Positions 34,018 to 41,995 of a stretch of DNA of 64,000 nucleotides are shown here, piece after piece. The notes under the pieces are model-generated. The model was not told where the DNA came from. It did no database searches and worked only from the letters and a program-made list of their open reading frames with translations. Location: assembly GCA_003211515.1 (NCBI GenBank), contig QCSN01000003.1, forward strand, positions 1-64,000, in the 5' to 3' direction. Numbering within the stretch: the first letter of the stretch is position 1; every line of letters begins with the position of its first letter. The position numbers were made by a program, and so were the translations under genes. This DNA is from Synechococcus sp. AG-670-F04 (GTDB lineage: Bacteria > Cyanobacteriota > Cyanobacteriia > PCC-6307 > Cyanobiaceae).

Positions 34018-34362
34018 ATGGACTTGGCTCCGGAAAAAATTCAACTTATCCCAATCTTTATATTGATGGTTATTGGCTGCTTTGGGCTTTTAACTTCAAA
34101 GTCCATTTTGCGTTCATTGTTCGCCCTTGATGTTATTGATACTGCGACAATCAGCATCTTTGTGTTAATTGCAGCCAGCAATGGCACGCAAACTCCAATT
34201 ATTTCTGAGAATTTGTATAGCAACTATGCAGACCCATACCCACAGGCGATAATACTAACTGCCATCGTTATCGGTTTCGCGACTCAGGCATTACTATGTG
34301 CCATTGCATTAAGGCTTGGCAGAGTCTCACCAATGCTTCGATACCGCGATTTAGAGAAATAA
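34018..34362 (+). CDS. mnhC: Na+/H+ antiporter subunit MrpC/MnhC
   Basis: 114 residues with three membrane helices, related to NuoK. Typical are IFILMVIGCFGLLTSKSILR, the segment LDVIDTATISIFVLIA, and the final AIILTAIVIGFATQALLCAIALRLG. It is the first gene of a seven-gene, tightly overlapping operon with AT-rich composition. The Mrp complex expels Na+ (and Li+ or K+) in exchange for H+, important in a marine cell. Confidence 0.85.
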   Translation: MDLAPEKIQLIPIFILMVIGCFGLLTSKSILRSLFALDVIDTATISIFVLIAASNGTQTPIISENLYSNYADPYPQAIILTAIVIGFATQALLCAIALRLGRVSPMLRYRDLEK

Positions 34363-34363
34363 G

Positions 34364-35896
34364 ATGAATGAAGCGATTATTCTTGGGTTTCTGATTTTTC
34401 TACCCGCAACACTTGGATTCATTGGCTGTGTTTTCCCAAAAATAACGTTCCCTCTGAGCATTACGATGCTCGCAGGATATGCATTGTCTTCTTTGTATGC
34501 ATTGAACCACGATATAAATTATGCGTTCACACTGATTGGCGAAGGTGGCATACAATTTTCAATTGACCGCTACAGTTTTCCACTTATCTTTGGAAGCTCA
34601 CTAACACTTTTAATCGTATTTGGTTTGTTCTCCAAGAGGTTTTCTCACTATTACTATCAAGTATGCCTGGTGCTGCTTACAGCATTATTGGTATCTTTTA
34701 GCACTGTTGATTTAATTAGTTTGTTCATTGCCCTTGAACTGCTGGGCTTTACGGCATTTTTACTTATTGCAGATAAAAACGACAAGAGAGCTTTGTTCCT
34801 ATCTTTCCAGTATTTAATCGGTGGCGGCCTAGCCATGCTGATTTACTTGATAGGTGTTATTCAAGCATTCACATTTACAGGTACTTTTTTAATTGCTGAT
34901 CTTGGTAATGCACCTGAGACAGCCTTGTGTTTGATCATCGCTGGACTACTTACGAAGGCAGGCGTCTTTATTTGCGGTCTATGGGTCCCCAACGTCTATT
35001 CCCATGCCAACTGTCAATCAGCAGCTGTTTTATCAGGGTGCGTGACATGCGCAGCAATCGCTCCGATTGAAAGAATGAGTGTCACACTGGCGCCGATTGG
35101 TGAAACATTAAGTGTTCTGGGTGTCTTGAGCGCGGTAATTGCAGCAATTTATGCCGTGTTTGAACGTGATAGTGGTCGTGCACTTGGATGGAGTTCAGTA
35201 TCACAACTTGGCATCGCAATACTTAGCCCAACTTACGGATGTCTTTATGCCATGCAACATGGAATCTGTAAAACGCTTCTTTTTTCAACCTTGCATAACG
35301 ATATTGATGAGGCCCAAATAACGAAAAGTGATGGGGCAAGCAATAAGATTAGAAACCATGAGGAAACAACAAGAGAAATTGTGAGGGTCTTGACATTTAT
35401 CATGGCAAGCTTATCAATCATGGGATTCCCACTCTTAGCAGGATTTGCTACAAAAGCATGGATTAAAAATGATTTGGCAGATGAAGCAAAAATCATCTTT
35501 ACAACAAGCGCACTATTGACATCGACCGTATACGCAAGATTGATATTTGACAGAGTCAATACACTTAGAACAAACTATGATCTACCAAATTACTTCGCCA
35601 GCCTCAAATTATCGAATGAGCTAAAAATGAGCATCTCTGCATCGAGATCGTTGATACTAATATTTTCGATAATCATGCTTGTGATTACTTCTTTATCACA
35701 AATTGATTTATTCACAAGTTACAGTATTCGCTCAGCCATTTTGTCAGCGTTTTTGGGCGGGATCCTCTTCACATCAGTTGTTGGGATCCAAGCCGACCAA
35801 TGGGTGAAACCAGTCACTCGAACACTTGATTTAGTTGGAGCACCGTTTCTCGTTGCAGCTCTACTGCTCGCAAACCTCCTCTATTTTAAAATCTGA
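34364..35896 (+). CDS. mnhD: Na+/H+ antiporter subunit MrpD/MnhD
   Basis: A 510-residue member of the complex I-like proton-translocating family, with about 14 hydrophobic segments. The key Glu of helix 5 lies in LISLFIALELLGF and the helix-7 Lys in GLLTKAGVFICGLWVPNVYSHA. It starts two bases after mnhC and shares its final base with the next gene. It is the only large antiporter-like subunit in the operon. Confidence 0.88.
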   Translation: MNEAIILGFLIFLPATLGFIGCVFPKITFPLSITMLAGYALSSLYALNHDINYAFTLIGEGGIQFSIDRYSFPLIFGSSLTLLIVFGLFSKRFSHYYYQVCLVLLTALLVSFSTVDLISLFIALELLGFTAFLLIADKNDKRALFLSFQYLIGGGLAMLIYLIGVIQAFTFTGTFLIADLGNAPETALCLIIAGLLTKAGVFICGLWVPNVYSHANCQSAAVLSGCVTCAAIAPIERMSVTLAPIGETLSVLGVLSAVIAAIYAVFERDSGRALGWSSVSQLGIAILSPTYGCLYAMQHGICKTLLFSTLHNDIDEAQITKSDGASNKIRNHEETTREIVRVLTFIMASLSIMGFPLLAGFATKAWIKNDLADEAKIIFTTSALLTSTVYARLIFDRVNTLRTNYDLPNYFASLKLSNELKMSISASRSLILIFSIIMLVITSLSQIDLFTSYSIRSAILSAFLGGILFTSVVGIQADQWVKPVTRTLDLVGAPFLVAALLLANLLYFKI

Positions 35897-36324
35897 TGAA
35901 AAATCTTATCCGGCTTTTTATTATTATCTCATTCAGGCTCCTATTATGGTGCCTAATGACATCATCATTTGATGCAAAAAATATTGGTTTTGGGTTAATT
36001 ATCAGCTGCCTTATTCCATTTGGCCAATATAAAAACTTGCAGCTGCGATCTGTTTTGCCAGAACTATTGTTGACACTAAAGCTACCGATAGATATGCTGA
36101 TAGAAAGTATAAAAGTGATGGCTATCAAGAATCCTCATGATAAATTTACAACCATAGAAATCAGTCCGATGGCAAAGAAAAATTCACAGTTATCCATTTT
36201 CATGGATATATTTCGAATAACGTTTACGCCGATGAGTATGGTCGTAGGACGTGCTGATGATGATCATTGGAAAATTCATACTATTGTCTCATCTAAATCT
36301 GATCAATATGGAGAACATAAATGA
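35896..36324 (+). CDS. mnhE: Na+/H+ antiporter subunit MrpE/MnhE
   Basis: 142 residues: two hydrophobic N-terminal segments (about 5-25 and 34-50, including GFGLIISCLIPFG), then a cytoplasmic domain with the phrase ISFR at the start and ITFTPMSMVVGRADDDHWKIHTI, which is the family's conserved TPGT-like region with altered Thr-Pro context. It overlaps mnhD by one base and mnhF by four. Confidence 0.78.
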   Translation: MKNLIRLFIIISFRLLLWCLMTSSFDAKNIGFGLIISCLIPFGQYKNLQLRSVLPELLLTLKLPIDMLIESIKVMAIKNPHDKFTTIEISPMAKKNSQLSIFMDIFRITFTPMSMVVGRADDDHWKIHTIVSSKSDQYGEHK

Positions 36325-36599
36325 TTGAATTCCACACACCAGAATGGTACACCTATGTATTCATCTATGTGATGTTACTGATTAGCCTTGTGCCTATTAT
36401 TGCAATTTCAAGATCGAATGATCCTGCTGCAAGAATTGCTTTCGCAGCCAGTTTCAGTACAAAACTTGCATGTTTAATTATTGCAGCAGGCATTTTCAGG
36501 CAGGACTGGATGATCGGCTGTATTGGAGCCTTTATTTTAATTGTTGGTGATGCAGGCATGCTTTTACTATCACTCTTGGAAATGAAGTTAAGATCATGA
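36321..36599 (+). CDS. mnhF: Na+/H+ antiporter subunit MrpF/MnhF
   Basis: 92 residues with three helices; NDPAARIAFAASFSTKLACLIIAAG corresponds to the family's conserved DR-type motif, and the third helix is GCIGAFILIVGDAGMLLLSLL. ATGA overlaps join it to both neighbours. Confidence 0.78.
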   Translation: MIEFHTPEWYTYVFIYVMLLISLVPIIAISRSNDPAARIAFAASFSTKLACLIIAAGIFRQDWMIGCIGAFILIVGDAGMLLLSLLEMKLRS

Positions 36600-36865
36600 T
36601 TATATTATCTAATTTTCTCATTATTCTTGGTCTTTTATTCTGGCTGTGGGGTACTTTGCCAATCGTAAACAAACAACATTCACTCTTGTACAAATTGCAT
36701 ACTTTAACAGTGTCTGATAGTGTTGGATCATTGATTCTTCTCTTCGGATTATTATTTCGTGTTCCAGACTACTGGCCACTTCTTGTTGTAACTGCGATTT
36801 CACTATCAATTTGGAACACAATTTTTAGTTACATAATCGCAAATGTTGCGGAGAAAAAGCTTTGA
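36596..36865 (+). CDS. mnhG: Na+/H+ antiporter subunit MrpG/MnhG
   Basis: 89 residues, three helices. The segment PIVNKQHSLLYKLHTLTVSDSVGSLILLFGLL matches the MrpG pattern, which has a conserved HAxT/K near the middle helix. It starts with ATG overlapping the mnhF stop and its stop overlaps the next gene (TTGA). Confidence 0.75.
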   Translation: MIILSNFLIILGLLFWLWGTLPIVNKQHSLLYKLHTLTVSDSVGSLILLFGLLFRVPDYWPLLVVTAISLSIWNTIFSYIIANVAEKKL

Positions 36866-37431
36866 ATCAATCACTTTTATCTACTGGTTTTTTGCTTCCA
36901 TTTGAAGTTCTACTTCCCGTTTTGGGAGTTTTATTAATTCGATCAGTTTCACCGATTAATACATTAATTTATAGATCTTTTCTTGGAAGTATTGCAGCAT
37001 TGCTCTATGCATTGGTTGGTGCCCCCGACGTAGCTTTAACAGAAGTCATGGTGGGAACATTACTTTCTTCGCTGCTTTATATCGTAACGATTCGATCATG
37101 CTATACAGTTGTGGTTATACGCGACAAAAGAAGTCAGCCTGAAGATAAAACTGATGAAGCACTGAAAAATATTTTTGAAGAACTAAATTTAAGTATTGAT
37201 TTTCAGCTAGAACAACTCTCATCAAATATTTTACAGGATATTAAATTCTTACATTCATCATCAATGTCTGGATCACCACACGCGATTCTGTTGGATAAAA
37301 ATTTGTATGTTGAAGTTGAAAGTTTAAAGCAAGACATCATTAATACAAAAACCTATATCTCTTCAGATCAATCAATTACTGTCAGTCTTATTCCCGATCA
37401 TCAACAATCGTCACAACCGATTTCATCATGA
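36862..37431 (+). CDS. DUF4040/MrpA C-terminal-like subunit with extra tail
   Basis: 189 residues. The first ~85 are membrane-embedded and match the DUF4040 segment found at the end of MrpA or start of MrpB (LLYALVGAPDVALTEVMVGTLLSSLLYIV). The rest is a hydrophilic Ser/Asp/Leu-rich tail without known relatives. It starts with TTG at 36862. There is no separate full-length MrpA anywhere in the window, so this small protein may stand in for part of it. Confidence 0.75.
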   Translation: MNQSLLSTGFLLPFEVLLPVLGVLLIRSVSPINTLIYRSFLGSIAALLYALVGAPDVALTEVMVGTLLSSLLYIVTIRSCYTVVVIRDKRSQPEDKTDEALKNIFEELNLSIDFQLEQLSSNILQDIKFLHSSSMSGSPHAILLDKNLYVEVESLKQDIINTKTYISSDQSITVSLIPDHQQSSQPISS

Positions 37432-38132
37432 AGCCATCTTTAAAGCTCACAATTAATTCAGATGTTGCCAAATCTGCGGTCTATCTAGTGGCAATTAGCG
37501 TTGTTATGTTAATGGTTTTATTTACAAGATCAGATTCATTCGCGCGTGATACAAATCTGATTGTTAGTCAACTCAGCGAATACACTAAGATACCAAATGT
37601 AGTAACTTCTGTAATACTTGGTACGCGACTTTTTGACACCATTGGCGAGGTAACGGTCTTTACAGTAGCTGGCTTAGGAGTAAAAATATTACTTGGCCAC
37701 GAACAAACGGAAGCTGAACAATTCGGAATTAAAGACCAATCGATTCGTATTCTATTAAACTTTGCAGCTCTTTTAAGCTTTATTCTTGCAATAGATCTAG
37801 CACTCAAAGGGCACCTCACTCCAGGCGGGGGTTTTGCTTCAGGTGTTGCCGGAGCCACTGCTGTGACGATCTTGATGCTTACGGGAGAGCTGCAACGTAT
37901 TGAGCGGCTTTACTTCCAGGCAAACGCTGCAGCAATGGAAAAATTTGCTGTTGTTTGTTTTGTTATCGTTGCATTTACAACCTTCGCATCATTTTTAATC
38001 CCTGACTCGATTGCTGCATCAATATCACCACGTGTTTATATCCCCTTACTTAATGTTGTTGCGGCATTTAAGGTGACAATTGGATCGTGGTCTATCCTGC
38101 GATTGTATATCCTTAAGAGAGGGGTGATTTAG
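37428..38132 (+). CDS. mnhB: Na+/H+ antiporter subunit MrpB/MnhB
   Basis: 234 residues with about five or six helices. The family motif HLTPGGGFASGVAGATAV is present, as is DTIGEVTVFTVAGLGV. It overlaps the previous gene by four bases and ends the operon. A gap of about 290 bp separates it from the binding-protein gene. Confidence 0.85.
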   Translation: MKPSLKLTINSDVAKSAVYLVAISVVMLMVLFTRSDSFARDTNLIVSQLSEYTKIPNVVTSVILGTRLFDTIGEVTVFTVAGLGVKILLGHEQTEAEQFGIKDQSIRILLNFAALLSFILAIDLALKGHLTPGGGFASGVAGATAVTILMLTGELQRIERLYFQANAAAMEKFAVVCFVIVAFTTFASFLIPDSIAASISPRVYIPLLNVVAAFKVTIGSWSILRLYILKRGVI

Positions 38133-38424
38133 TCGAGTATCACGAGAAAAAAATTACACATGCAATAGAAAAAATTATCTGTAAATTCATACAATCAAAT
38201 ATAATTTATTGGAAATTGCTTTTGTTACCAATTCAATTCAACCCTATAAGGAAGCAAAAAATAATAACTTTGCAAACTTGCCATTAGGGATAGGAAATGA
38301 GAAGTAAGTAATGAGAAAATCTCAATAGGATGATAAAGATGGATAAGTTCAGAATTCTCCTTTACGATAATGGCACTTGTCATCATGCTGAATGAACGGG
38401 GACTGCCTCCATGCAGTGAGTCGT

Positions 38425-39285
38425 ATGGCAATCTTCAGGTGGTTGCTTGGTTGCCTAATTATCTGCACCTTCCTATTGATATATCCGAGCATGAGCATGG
38501 CCGTTGAAAATAATTTTATAAATGGAATTCAGGAACGAGGATACATTAAAATAGGATTGCCACCCTATAACACTCCGCCAGCTTATTATATTGATCCGAA
38601 AACAAAGGAACTGAGTGGTTATGACGTCGATTTCGCACGAAAACTAGCCAGCGAACTAGAAGTTGATGTTAAGTTTTATCGAAACTCTAAAGATTTTAAT
38701 GATCTTGTCAGACGTGTAGGAGCTAAAGAATTTGACCTCGCGATGGGCAAGTTAGGTACAACTTATGAACGCTTGTTCAATGCGTTTCCAGTACAGTATA
38801 TGAAACTTCGACATGCGATTCTGGCGAACCGTCAGTCGCTTGAAAAGAATGATTTGAGGAGTGGGCTTCCAGATTTTGGAGACAGGCTCAAAAACTCGTC
38901 AATTCGAATCGGTAGAATGGGTGGTTCAATTTGGGATACGGAAGTAAGGCGTGTATTTCCAAATGCTAAAATTATCAAATTTAATGATTGGGGGGAAGTT
39001 AAGGAAGCATTATTTGAGGGTCGTGTTGATGCAATTTATAGAGATGCAACTGAAATCAAGGCCATTGTTTACCAAGACCCCAACCTTGCGATTCAATATG
39101 TACCTATACTTTTTGAGGATGAATTAACAATGACATCGATATTTATGTCTGAATCTGGGAAATTTGGCTTTAGCGATTTTCTAAAATTTTTTATTGATAG
39201 AGAATGGGGTGAAATTAAAAATGACAGCGCAATCTTTGAAGAGTTTCAAGATTACTACAACTCGCTTTCTAAATTTCAACCATGA
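38425..39285 (+). CDS. Periplasmic solute-binding protein, family 3
   Basis: 286 residues from ATG 38425, with a signal peptide (about 5-30, ending SMA). The fold is bacterial SBP family 3 (amino-acid-type): GYIKIGLPPYNTPPAYYID, LSGYDVDFARKLASEL, EFDLAMGKLGTTYERL and GRVDAIYRDATEI. The Arg and Asp that bind the alpha-amino and carboxyl groups of amino acids are partly altered. The stop overlaps the start of a DAACS-type secondary transporter (ATGA), instead of the usual ABC permease. Confidence 0.85.
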   Translation: MAIFRWLLGCLIICTFLLIYPSMSMAVENNFINGIQERGYIKIGLPPYNTPPAYYIDPKTKELSGYDVDFARKLASELEVDVKFYRNSKDFNDLVRRVGAKEFDLAMGKLGTTYERLFNAFPVQYMKLRHAILANRQSLEKNDLRSGLPDFGDRLKNSSIRIGRMGGSIWDTEVRRVFPNAKIIKFNDWGEVKEALFEGRVDAIYRDATEIKAIVYQDPNLAIQYVPILFEDELTMTSIFMSESGKFGFSDFLKFFIDREWGEIKNDSAIFEEFQDYYNSLSKFQP

Positions 39286-40643
39286 ATTACATTTCAATTG
39301 TCTTCAATTGGCTAATCGCAACCCTACCTAAGCTTCGTAGACCCAAAAATTTCTTTTTAATTATTCTGCCATTTTCCCTGCTTTTGGGAAGACTTGCATC
39401 TGACTATTCGGTTCTACTTAATGAAATTAGTGAAGGATTAATCAATTTAATTGCATTCCCCGCTATACCTCTTGTACTTTCAGCAGTGATGGTATCAATA
39501 GCAAATATTTTTAGTGTTGAAGAACGTTCGAAACCAGATCGATTCAAATTTGCCAGCAGATTTGGAGTGGCATTGGCTTGCGTTGTTCTTTTTATATCAA
39601 TCCTTGCTCTTCTTCTCTCGATATATCAATCACCTGGAATATTATCTCCTGAAGGCAGACTAAATATTGGCCGTTTTATGCTTGATGAATTAGATATTCG
39701 TATTGGTGGTTCAATTGTTGAAAGCGAGCCAACATATTGGTTTGACAGCATCATTCCTACCAACATTCTATTTGATGCGTCAAATAATAACACACTGAAA
39801 GTAATTAGTGGTTCAATAATTGCAGGTTTGGCGATGTCACGTCTCAGCTCTGAGAAAGTTAAACCTCTAATCAATCTGCTTCGGAGTATTAATTCGATTT
39901 CGGTTCAAGTTTTAAACATTGTCTTGAATCTTGCGCCATTGGTGCTGATTTTCGTGATTGCATCGGCCGTAACAAAAATAAATTCGCAAATAATAGTCAC
40001 TTTATTAAATTTCTCAATCTGTGTTTTCTTTACAGCTGTTATATCCCTTGGTATTTCGAGACTGATATTCAAACGTTTTACGACTAGAGATGAGCGTCTT
40101 TTGTTTGCTACGAATCCCATCGACAAAATCTTCTTGCTGGCTTTGTCTACAGGAAGCAGTATGTCAGCCTACTCATTGATATTCGATACATTAATGAAAT
40201 TAAAAAGAGATCAAGCTGAGGTTGAAGCATCAGTCTCTTTAAGTTTGCTAGTCGCGAGACTTGGCAATGTCACCTACAATGTTATTGCAATCATGTTCGC
40301 ACTTAATTTATACGAAGTCCAGTTGAATCCCTTGATCATGATTGAGGTTCTATTTTTCGGAATTGCAACAGGTTTCTCAACCGCAGGCTTAACAGGAGTA
40401 ACAACAATACGGACAATCAGTCTGGCATTGTCGAGTTTCCAAGTACCAACGCAACCTGTAATACCACTTCTCATGGTGATCGATCCCATACTTTCACTTC
40501 CGAGGGCTGCGACAACAGCTGTACTTGCCACAGCAATCGGATTGATCGCATCTGTAGGCTCGACACGGGCTGGGGAAACCGTCGACGCAGGAGAACAGAT
40601 TCATCCCATCGGGCTGGATCCAGGCATCATTGGGGCGGACTGA
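39282..40643 (+). CDS. DAACS-fold secondary transporter, divergent
   Basis: 453 residues, about eight hydrophobic helices plus two re-entrant hairpins, related to the dicarboxylate/amino acid:cation symporters (GltP/GltPh). Helix 7 NMDGT-like segment reads LGNVTYNVIAIMF, and the helix-8 block reads DPILSLPRAATTAVLATAIG. Compared with GltPh, the helix-8 Arg is kept, but the substrate and Na+ ligands Asp394, Thr398, Asn401 and Asp405 are replaced. Substrate is probably not aspartate or glutamate. Coupled to the upstream binding protein. A hydrophilic C-terminal tail (about 30 residues) follows the last helix. Confidence 0.8.
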   Translation: MNYISIVFNWLIATLPKLRRPKNFFLIILPFSLLLGRLASDYSVLLNEISEGLINLIAFPAIPLVLSAVMVSIANIFSVEERSKPDRFKFASRFGVALACVVLFISILALLLSIYQSPGILSPEGRLNIGRFMLDELDIRIGGSIVESEPTYWFDSIIPTNILFDASNNNTLKVISGSIIAGLAMSRLSSEKVKPLINLLRSINSISVQVLNIVLNLAPLVLIFVIASAVTKINSQIIVTLLNFSICVFFTAVISLGISRLIFKRFTTRDERLLFATNPIDKIFLLALSTGSSMSAYSLIFDTLMKLKRDQAEVEASVSLSLLVARLGNVTYNVIAIMFALNLYEVQLNPLIMIEVLFFGIATGFSTAGLTGVTTIRTISLALSSFQVPTQPVIPLLMVIDPILSLPRAATTAVLATAIGLIASVGSTRAGETVDAGEQIHPIGLDPGIIGAD

Positions 40644-40675: not shown

Positions 40676-41995
40676 TTAGAGCAATGATTCTTGCTGAGTG
40701 GCACTGATGACTCCCTTCCATAGAGCCCCATCAAGATCGACCATCCGTCGTTGTTGAGTTGCTAGTGCAATTGGAACATGTGTGAAGAAGTTGTTCCAAT
40801 GTCCAATCACAACATCGGTCTTTCCTGCCATTCCAGCATGAACAGCATGTTCAGCAAGTAAATAGCAAAATACAGCATCAGCCGCATTAGCCTTCACACT
40901 ACGAATATGATAACTTGGGTCAATGTATTTCATCGTAACGCTCTGATTCATCCGACTAAATCTGGAACTAATTTCGTCTTTTAGAAAAACTCCGATATCG
41001 TCTTTTAAAATATTGCCAGACGGGTCTGTCTTCTGAACACTTTCGTTAAACAACCTCTGTCCTGCTCCTTCTGCTACAACGATGACAGCATGCTGGTTGT
41101 GTTCAAGCTTTTGTGTTAAAGCTGATATCAACCCTTTCTCTCCATCCAATTGAAAATCTATTTCTGGTATCAAGCAAAAATCAACAACGGAGTTGGCCAA
41201 GGAAGCAGTTGCAGCAATGAAGCCAGAATCACGACCCATCACTTTGACAATACCAATCCCACGATCCGCACCCTCTGCTTCACAATGTGCTGATGTAATG
41301 ATTTCAGAAGCAACCTGAACTGAAGTTTCGAATCCAAACGTCTTCTCAATAAAACCTAAATCATTATCAATCGTTTTCGGGATTCCAATCACGCTGATCG
41401 GCAACTGGCGCTGCTCGATTTCTGAAGCGATAGCACTCGCTCCACGTAGGGTTCCATCACCGCCAATACAGAACAAGAGATTGATCTTATTCTTCACCAA
41501 TTGATCAACCATTTCTTTTGGGTCTTGATTACCACGGGAAGAACCAAGAATTGTTCCACCCCGAGTATGGAGCTGATCAACAGCCTGAGAGTTTAAGCTA
41601 AAGGGCCGATGAGCAGCCTCCGCTGTTAAACCTTTATATCCATAGCGAATTCCATCGATGTGCTTTACCCCGTAGTCGCCTTCTAACGTTCGTACAACTC
41701 CCTTAATCACATTGTTCAATCCTGGACATAGTCCACCACAGGTAATAATGGCAGCTCTAGATTCAGCTGGATTGTGAAAGATTGACTGCCTGGGGCCGGC
41801 CTTTTCGAAGCTTGGAAAAGTATTACAGCTTTCGATTTGCTGAAAAATATTGTGAACCTGACTGGAAAATGCGATCCGATCTGAATCAGAAACAAACTGA
41901 TGATTTATTCCAGGTGCTTTCAGCATGGAGGGTCCAAGATTTTTGATGTTGAAGTCAAAATCATCTGGACTACTGAGAACATTTTCATAAATCAT
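40676..41995 (-). CDS. pfkA: 6-phosphofructokinase
   Basis: Glycolytic PFK, 439 residues, phosphorylating fructose-6-phosphate. Motifs: ITCGGLCPGLNNVIKG, FCIGGDGTLRGA, GIPKTIDNDLGF and VMGRDSGFIA. The Gly in GGDG points to ATP as donor, while the Lys of PKTIDND is the residue typical of PPi-type enzymes; this mixed pair is known in plant-type ATP-PFKs. An N-terminal extension of about 75 residues precedes the catalytic core. It lies convergent to the symporter and upstream of pgl, in an AT-rich setting. Confidence 0.85.
   Translation of the reverse strand: MIYENVLSSPDDFDFNIKNLGPSMLKAPGINHQFVSDSDRIAFSSQVHNIFQQIESCNTFPSFEKAGPRQSIFHNPAESRAAIITCGGLCPGLNNVIKGVVRTLEGDYGVKHIDGIRYGYKGLTAEAAHRPFSLNSQAVDQLHTRGGTILGSSRGNQDPKEMVDQLVKNKINLLFCIGGDGTLRGASAIASEIEQRQLPISVIGIPKTIDNDLGFIEKTFGFETSVQVASEIITSAHCEAEGADRGIGIVKVMGRDSGFIAATASLANSVVDFCLIPEIDFQLDGEKGLISALTQKLEHNQHAVIVVAEGAGQRLFNESVQKTDPSGNILKDDIGVFLKDEISSRFSRMNQSVTMKYIDPSYHIRSVKANAADAVFCYLLAEHAVHAGMAGKTDVVIGHWNNFFTHVPIALATQQRRMVDLDGALWKGVISATQQESLL

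Follow-up and report, generated by a model that had tools for sequence, protein, structure and literature searches.

The DAACS/SLC1 transporters (PF00375, TC 2.A.23) include GltPh, GltTk, EAAT, and ASCT. The substrate site of DAACS transporters features Asp394, Arg397, Thr398, and Asn401 in GltPh numbering. The available passages of Reddy et al. 2025 (PMC12668577) describe a signature for Na+-coupled members, which consists of [S/T]92-93, N310, [M/S]311, [D/E]312, and [D/E]405, and a signature for H+-coupled members, which consists of a hydrophobic residue at 92, L311, and N405. The same passages report that uncoupled transporters from Firmicutes have amino-acid enzymes as gene neighbours. Dependence of secondary transport on a solute-binding protein (SBP) is reviewed in terms of the TRAP and TTT systems in the available parts of PMC5812351, and no description of an SBP-dependent DAACS transporter was recognised among titles and abstract beginnings in the open-access literature.

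The DNA analysed here, referred to as the window, is a stretch of 64,000 nucleotides from Synechococcus sp. AG-670-F04 (GCA_003211515.1, contig QCSN01000003.1, positions 1 to 64,000, forward strand). It carries an SBP gene that overlaps the gene of a DAACS-fold (SDF) transporter. The pairing of these genes is conserved, no ABC components are seen beside them, the Na+-ligand residues of the transporter are replaced, and ligand residues are retained.

The gene pair and its conservation

Table 1. Coordinates of the gene pair and the adjoining antiporter genes in the window
Feature	Position	Strand	Basis or remark
Mrp-type Na+/H+ antiporter run (C, D, E, unmatched small protein, G, MbhD-like, B)	34018..38132	+	Pfam/NCBIfam
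SBP (family-3 solute-binding protein) ORF, longest form	38392..39285	+	ORF list and Pfam
SBP probable start	38425	+	ATG, 12th codon of the longest form; opens a hydrophobic signal-like stretch (by eye)
SDF/DAACS-fold transporter ORF	39282..40643	+	ORF list, Pfam, alignments, and fold
ATGA start/stop overlap of the SBP and SDF genes	39282..39285	+	4 shared bases, read in the sequence

The first-pass annotation of the window had described a family-3 SBP gene that overlaps a GltP/GltPh-type gene by an ATGA, and the open reading frames, the sequence, and Pfam all bear this out (Table 1). The SBP matches SBP_bac_3 (PF00497) with 43.0 bits (cut-off 26.4) and the transporter matches SDF (PF00375) with 123.3 bits (cut-off 27.9), which places the two proteins in family 3 and in DAACS, respectively. 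At E 0.001 Pfam assigns the membrane protein to SDF and to no other family, with no match to the DctQ or DctM subunits of TRAP systems (2.A.56). A PF00375 search of the source assembly, which is 68% complete, matched only this gene. The absence of an ABC permease or ATPase, also claimed in the first reading, agrees with the profile searches of the seven upstream window proteins (34018-38132), which gave no ABC-family match, and with the relatives, where none was seen beside the pair. The downstream open reading frame on the opposite strand (40676-41995) is one that we take to resemble phosphofructokinase.

Clade membership was set at a cut of 290 bits. Under a clade model that favours the finding of linkage because its nine seeds are SBP-linked, 57 of the 63 distinct clade transporters are preceded by a same-strand SBP no more than 300 bp away (56 separate genes and one broken frame, L012). 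An SBP at such a distance was found beside none of 35 lower-scoring SDF proteins (90–190 bits), of which 33 have room of 300 bp or more, as judged by a profile of nine SDF-linked SBPs that a remote SBP could therefore escape. The comparison of neighbours across relatives, proposed along with the first reading, is thus answered in favour of the pairing. The count of 63 covers proteins of at least 350 amino acids; it leaves out shorter reading frames (e.g. L008, L024, L030, L074, L084, L085), four SDF proteins at 190–290 bits (the second SDFs of L089-L091 and L152, with the nearest SBP at 865–1985 bp), nine fusions, and two of 40 strong class-search matches (G766, G818). An SDF match was obtained in 189 genomes, from which the best 30 loci and follow-ups were inspected, and the 35 lower-scoring proteins come from the 30 best-scoring loci of this search, four plasmid loci, and the second SDF of L092.

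The commonest spacing of the SBP and SDF genes is the 4-base overlap, which is found in 11 of the 56 upstream pairs. Six clade transporters have no upstream SBP: L152, which features an SBP 299 bp downstream, L154, which has 163 bp of room at a contig end, and L108, L148, L157, and L158, which are unlinked and all belong to one genus, with only 288 bp of room in L108. An orphan SBP of the same type (274–278 bits) is located elsewhere in three of the four genomes of this genus, the fourth being 83% complete, and two of these orphan SBPs have no ABC gene, by eye, within roughly 1.5 kb to either side. A family-wide search of 201 genomes, including the source, found the transporter in seven, with the SBP directly upstream in all six that have room and the seventh at a contig end. 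The scan of genome contigs, a set that overlaps partly with the family-wide one, gave 17 loci with an SBP upstream in 16 of 16 testable cases, L012 among them; L024 begins inside the transporter gene. The class search of 291 genomes returned 40 strong matches (at least 302 bits) in 39 genomes, the rest scoring at most 216 bits, and its alignment includes an unlinked member, L077. The SBP was found in none of ten genomes of the source's genus in which the transporter was not found. Additionally, L075 and L076, whose transporters share only 23–24% identity with that of the window, still show the pairing. L012 is 3.3 kb long and assigned to a Rubripirellula MAG; it carries the picocyanobacterial cluster and seems to resemble Synechococcus, and is probably a case of mis-binning.

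Searches of plasmids with tblastn revealed clade members (35–37% identity) from Paraburkholderia (two records), Cupriavidus (one), and Gemmobacter (one), each with an SBP upstream, and no such SBP was found at the four weaker plasmid matches that were opened (L095-L098). Among the best 10 of 68 plasmid matches to the window SBP, the four SDF-linked SBPs score highest (109, 94, 91, and 76 bits) and the next match reaches 65 bits; three of the other six in these ten were checked in the annotation and lie beside ABC genes.

Nine distinct fusions of about 710–755 amino acids combine an SDF domain with a further region at the C-terminal end; seven come from six genomes of the source's family and the other two from plasmids of the gammaproteobacteria Halioglobus and Pseudoalteromonas. 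Pfam finds both SDF and SBP_bac_3 in the two fusions tested (L080, L094), and at E 0.01 the clade SBP model picks up six of the nine; L078 and L082 are matched by neither the Pfam test nor the clade SBP model, and L082 is nearly identical to L080 in the tree. The fusions form a tree group of their own. Its connection to the canonical rows has 94/96 support, below the full mark of the tree tool, and lies where long branches meet, so two origins of SBP linkage, one as a gene pair and one as a fusion, are likely but not proven by the sequences. In an alignment of 10 fusion rows (two from one gene), which is remote and unsure, none has Arg at 311, R397, or D394. One SBP (L076/L130) features an N-terminal peptidoglycan-binding domain (PF01471).

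Residues and folds of the two proteins

The window transporter aligns with GltPh without a gap from Asp390 to Asp405, and the residues D401, S405, R408, A409, T412, and A416 correspond to D390, D394, R397, T398, N401, and D405. The helix-8 residues given in the first-pass annotation (Arg kept; Ser, Ala, Thr, and Ala at the other four positions) are therefore correct. In helix 7, which was not part of that reading, the GltPh sequence NMDGT corresponds to A325 R326 L327 G328 N329. An alignment of the clade Arg with Asn310 was rejected, as HMMER alignments and the G313/Y317 anchors put it at Met311. Measured against the signatures in the available passages of PMC12668577, the window protein departs from the Na+ type at positions 310, 311, 312, and 405 (A325, R326, L327, and A416) and from the H+ type at 311 and 405 (R326 and A416). 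Positions 92/93, obtained by a simple anchor count, are mixed in all groups; those of the window are V101/V102, counted from the conserved PG.

These replacements extend through the clade. A residue table of 55 clade members and 34 comparison sequences, which predates the last loci, shows that Asp390 and Arg397 are each present in 55/55 members and that Met311 is replaced by Arg in 54 and by Gln in one. Asn310 (A, S, G, C, or L), Asp312 (L, F, V, M, T, or I), and Asn401 (T, I, L, or S) are replaced in all 55, and Asp405 is G, A, S, or N. The 34 comparison proteins, which for the most part show the H+ signature (L311, N405) and so do not form a Na+-coupled control, have N310 in 33 and N401 in 34, with L (31) or M (3) at 311 and N (32) or D (2) at 405.

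Among the substrate-site residues D394, R397, T398, and N401, only R397 is kept in the window, so the canonical set is incomplete. In picocyanobacteria (n = 23) D394 is T in 19, D in two, S in one, and M in one. The 32 members from outside the picocyanobacteria have R397 in 32, D (24) or N (8) at 394, T at 398 in 28, and N401 in none. The first-pass claim that the transporter lacks the canonical substrate ligands holds for the window and the picocyanobacteria but not for the other clade members, because the loss of D394 is confined to picocyanobacteria.

The transporter model has a moderate pLDDT of 70.7 and features the GltPh fold, with a VIA Z of 35.4 and an rmsd of 3.2 over 363 residues aligned to 6uwl (VIA rows within 1 Z were treated as tied). 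The structure prediction that had been suggested as a check thus returned a GltPh-type fold, at moderate model confidence.

The 57 distinct SDF-linked SBPs feature R127, D218, R147, and E221 in all 57 and K120 and R217 in 56 each. R127 and D218 presumably hold the alpha-carboxylate and alpha-amino groups of the ligand, respectively, as in known SBPs, and their presence in 57/57 proteins points to an amino-acid-binding type. Three ABC-linked SBPs were compared; R127 is present in three of them and D218 in two, K120, R217, and E221 are present in none, and R147 is replaced by Lys, Asn, and Lys. The SBP model (pLDDT 83.0) has a fold that matches amino-acid SBPs. The closest fold is that of a sulfobetaine-bound SAR11 protein, which was set aside as a clue to the ligand, many amino-acid SBPs scoring nearly equally.

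Gene neighbours of the pair

Neighbours were counted by hand over distinct loci with room, and most labels come from similarity to a typed member. Six of the seven window proteins upstream of the pair match antiporter or complex-I-type families in Pfam, including an MNHE match at 26.4 bits, slightly below the cut-off of 27; the protein at 36321-36596 has no profile match. The Mrp operon that had been placed just upstream of the pair is seen in the window and is conserved at 19 of 22 picocyanobacterial loci with room, so a linkage peculiar to the window was set aside. In Cyanobium (L007/L025) a CPA1-type Na+/H+ exchanger (PF00999) is located upstream of the pair in place of Mrp. A K+-channel-like gene precedes the pair at 20 of 22 picocyanobacterial loci, the exceptions being the window and Cyanobium (Pfam confirmed two of the proteins). 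In the window, where this gene is missing, 259 bases (38133-38391) separate mrpB from the SBP open reading frame.

ComA is present at 12 of the 22 picocyanobacterial loci and absent at 10 (Pfam confirmed three proteins), and a VOC gene is present at four of 22. The ComA-like proteins score 190–222 bits against PF02679 (cut-off 25.2) and 172–190 against the archaeal equivalog, which is under its cut-off of 280. ComA was found in eight of 40 genomes searched, and all eight carry the pair; since all eight copies sit at the cluster, this co-occurrence reflects linkage and is not an independent test. ComA was not found in the source assembly (68% complete), which does carry the pair. PF04029, the family of the ComA pathway partner, is present in 39 of the 40 genomes and was set aside as a marker. 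No description of the Mrp/ComA cluster was recognised among open-access titles and abstract beginnings, and no open-access paper was found that brings together phosphosulfolactate synthase, Synechococcus, and sulfonate.

At the loci examined from other cyanobacteria and from proteobacteria no Mrp adjoins the pair. An Asp/Glu-type racemase is found at 20 of 26 other cyanobacterial loci with the pair and at 4/4 proteobacterial loci, and the four racemases that were profile-searched all score above the cut-off of TIGR00035, an amino acid racemase family. Cysteate is the sulfonate analogue of aspartate. The cysteate racemase CuyB interconverts L-cysteate and D-cysteate according to the available text of PMC11382572. 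The CuyB profile NF052483 (cut-off 190) is passed by the racemases of Cupriavidus (217.8) and Gemmobacter (213.3), and the two cyanobacterial racemases tested lie below it (181.0 and 171.6).

A dCache-HAMP-type protein adjoins the pair at 16 of the 26 other cyanobacterial loci. Four such proteins beside the pair were profile-searched (L130:8960-10981, L134:6912-8438, L139:6341-7831, and L141:4431-5933); HAMP passes in all four, and dCache_1 passes in two and falls short, or just short, in two. The output domain in L130 is a guanylate cyclase, and none was found in the other three. In Paraburkholderia and Cupriavidus (L089-L091) the genes run SBP, SDF, racemase, and then a second, diverged SDF gene, amid genes that by eye are type VI secretion-like. 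In one cyanobacterium (L134:451-3565) the racemase, SBP, and SDF genes come after genes for a contractile injection system (CIS_tube, Phage_base_V), a context that echoes the type VI-like one in Burkholderiales.

Proposed mechanism and comparison with known systems

On the sequence evidence, there is a reasonable probability that the pair forms a third SBP-dependent secondary system besides TRAP and TTT, working without ATP: a transporter of two components that is fed by a binding protein, has lost its Na+ sites, and has an amino-acid-like anion as its substrate. The periplasmic SBP would capture this anion, which could be of the aspartate/glutamate type or the sulfonate analogue cysteate, and would dock on and deliver it to a DAACS elevator that is presumably trimeric like GltPh. 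The transporter, with the substrate Arg kept, the Na+ sites gone, and an Arg at Met311, would carry the substrate independently of Na+. Affinity and direction would be set by the SBP rather than by Na+, as in TRAP systems, and the racemase or other enzymes may hold the concentration of the substrate inside the cell low.

The racemase and ComA neighbours suggest that the substrate is an acidic amino acid or a C3 sulfonate. Points against this reading are that ComA is a biosynthetic enzyme family, that it is missing from 10 of the 22 picocyanobacterial loci and was not found in the source assembly, and that the two cyanobacterial racemases tested score below the CuyB cut-off. The non-dicarboxylate substrate of the first-pass annotation is doubtful, since Arg397 and Asp390 are invariant (55/55), as are Arg127 and Asp218 of the SBP (57/57), the neighbouring enzymes suggest an acidic amino acid or sulfonate, and Asp394 is lost in picocyanobacteria only. 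As far as the genes tell, its coupling of the transporter to an SBP stands; its statement on missing substrate ligands was too broad, and its drive by the Na+ gradient of Mrp is disfavoured. The transporter is probably not Na+-coupled, because throughout the clade other residues stand in place of Na+ ligands of GltPh and because the pair occurs without Mrp at the loci examined from other cyanobacteria and proteobacteria.

The Mrp genes that picocyanobacteria retain beside the pair (19 of 22 loci with room) nevertheless fit a link to Na+ better than Na+ independence. Together with the CPA1-type exchanger in Cyanobium, they favour an SBP-fed transporter that is still coupled to Na+ or H+ at new sites and powered by the Mrp gradient, which we consider unlikely, as Arg at 311 and Ala at 405 fit neither of the signatures in the available passages of PMC12668577 and no adjoining Mrp is seen at the loci examined from other lineages. 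Conserved adjacency could serve sensing as well, and this also counts against the binding-protein-fed transporter. The SBP and a slow or transport-dead SDF protein would then signal to a partner such as the dCache-HAMP protein (at 16 of the 26 loci from other cyanobacteria) or the K+ channel (at 20 of the 22 from picocyanobacteria), and the eroded substrate site of the picocyanobacterial proteins would be in keeping with such a role. However, neither of these partners is conserved clade-wide, metabolic enzymes (racemase and ComA) are linked as well, and the Arg397 and Asp390 equivalents are invariant, so a sensor or receptor pair is quite improbable. That an orphan SBP and an independent carrier are neighbours in an operon by coincidence would agree with the variation between lineages of the genes outside the pair, but it is very hard to reconcile with pairing that persists at 23–24% identity to the window protein, with SBPs that co-occur even when unlinked, and with a separate group of single-chain SDF-SBP fusions.

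More speculatively, the binding-protein-fed transporter may represent a third SBP-dependent secondary family, built on the glutamate-transporter fold and arisen at least twice (pair and fusion), in which an internal Arg lies among the replaced Na+ sites and the control of affinity and direction has passed to the SBP. In marine picocyanobacteria this family might then carry a C3 sulfonate (cysteate or sulfolactate) within an ion-and-osmolyte cluster that includes Mrp, the K+ channel, and ComA; this wider proposal is tentative. An SBP-fed member of the fold that human EAATs share, lacking Na+ sites, would offer a natural setting in which to see how coupling and direction can shift from ions to a partner protein, and the pair could be a route by which marine cyanobacteria take up acidic amino acids or sulfonates.

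The clade shares with DAACS/SLC1 transporters the SDF family, the GltPh fold, and the Arg397 and Asp390 equivalents; it differs from them in the replaced Na+-ligand residues, the Arg at Met311, and the dedicated SBP gene. Loss of the coupling residues is common to the clade and to the Na+-uncoupled DAACS proteins AncInt and ExtInt, as these are described in the available passages of PMC12668577. Among PDB entries, 9bgz (an ancestral uncoupled aspartate transporter) comes first both in sequence comparison and with Foldseek, whereas VIA alignment ranks GltPh (6uwl) first. ExtInt belongs to a Firmicutes group, the available passages of its paper (PMC12668577) give no Arg at 311, and the terms 'binding protein', 'periplasmic', and 'cyanobacteria' were not found in its main text. 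The fusions feature both domains, like the pair, but in one chain, with the SBP at the C-terminus and on a separate branch. Amino-acid ABC importers have the SBP family and R127/D218 in common with the pair, which has no permease or ATPase seen beside it, and in the comparison with the three ABC-linked SBPs K120, R217, and E221 were found only in the SDF-linked set. In the TRAP and TTT systems, according to the available parts of PMC5812351, an SBP feeds an ATP-independent carrier, as is proposed for the pair. The pair differs from these systems in that its membrane part is a single SDF protein and its SBP is of family 3 (PF00497).
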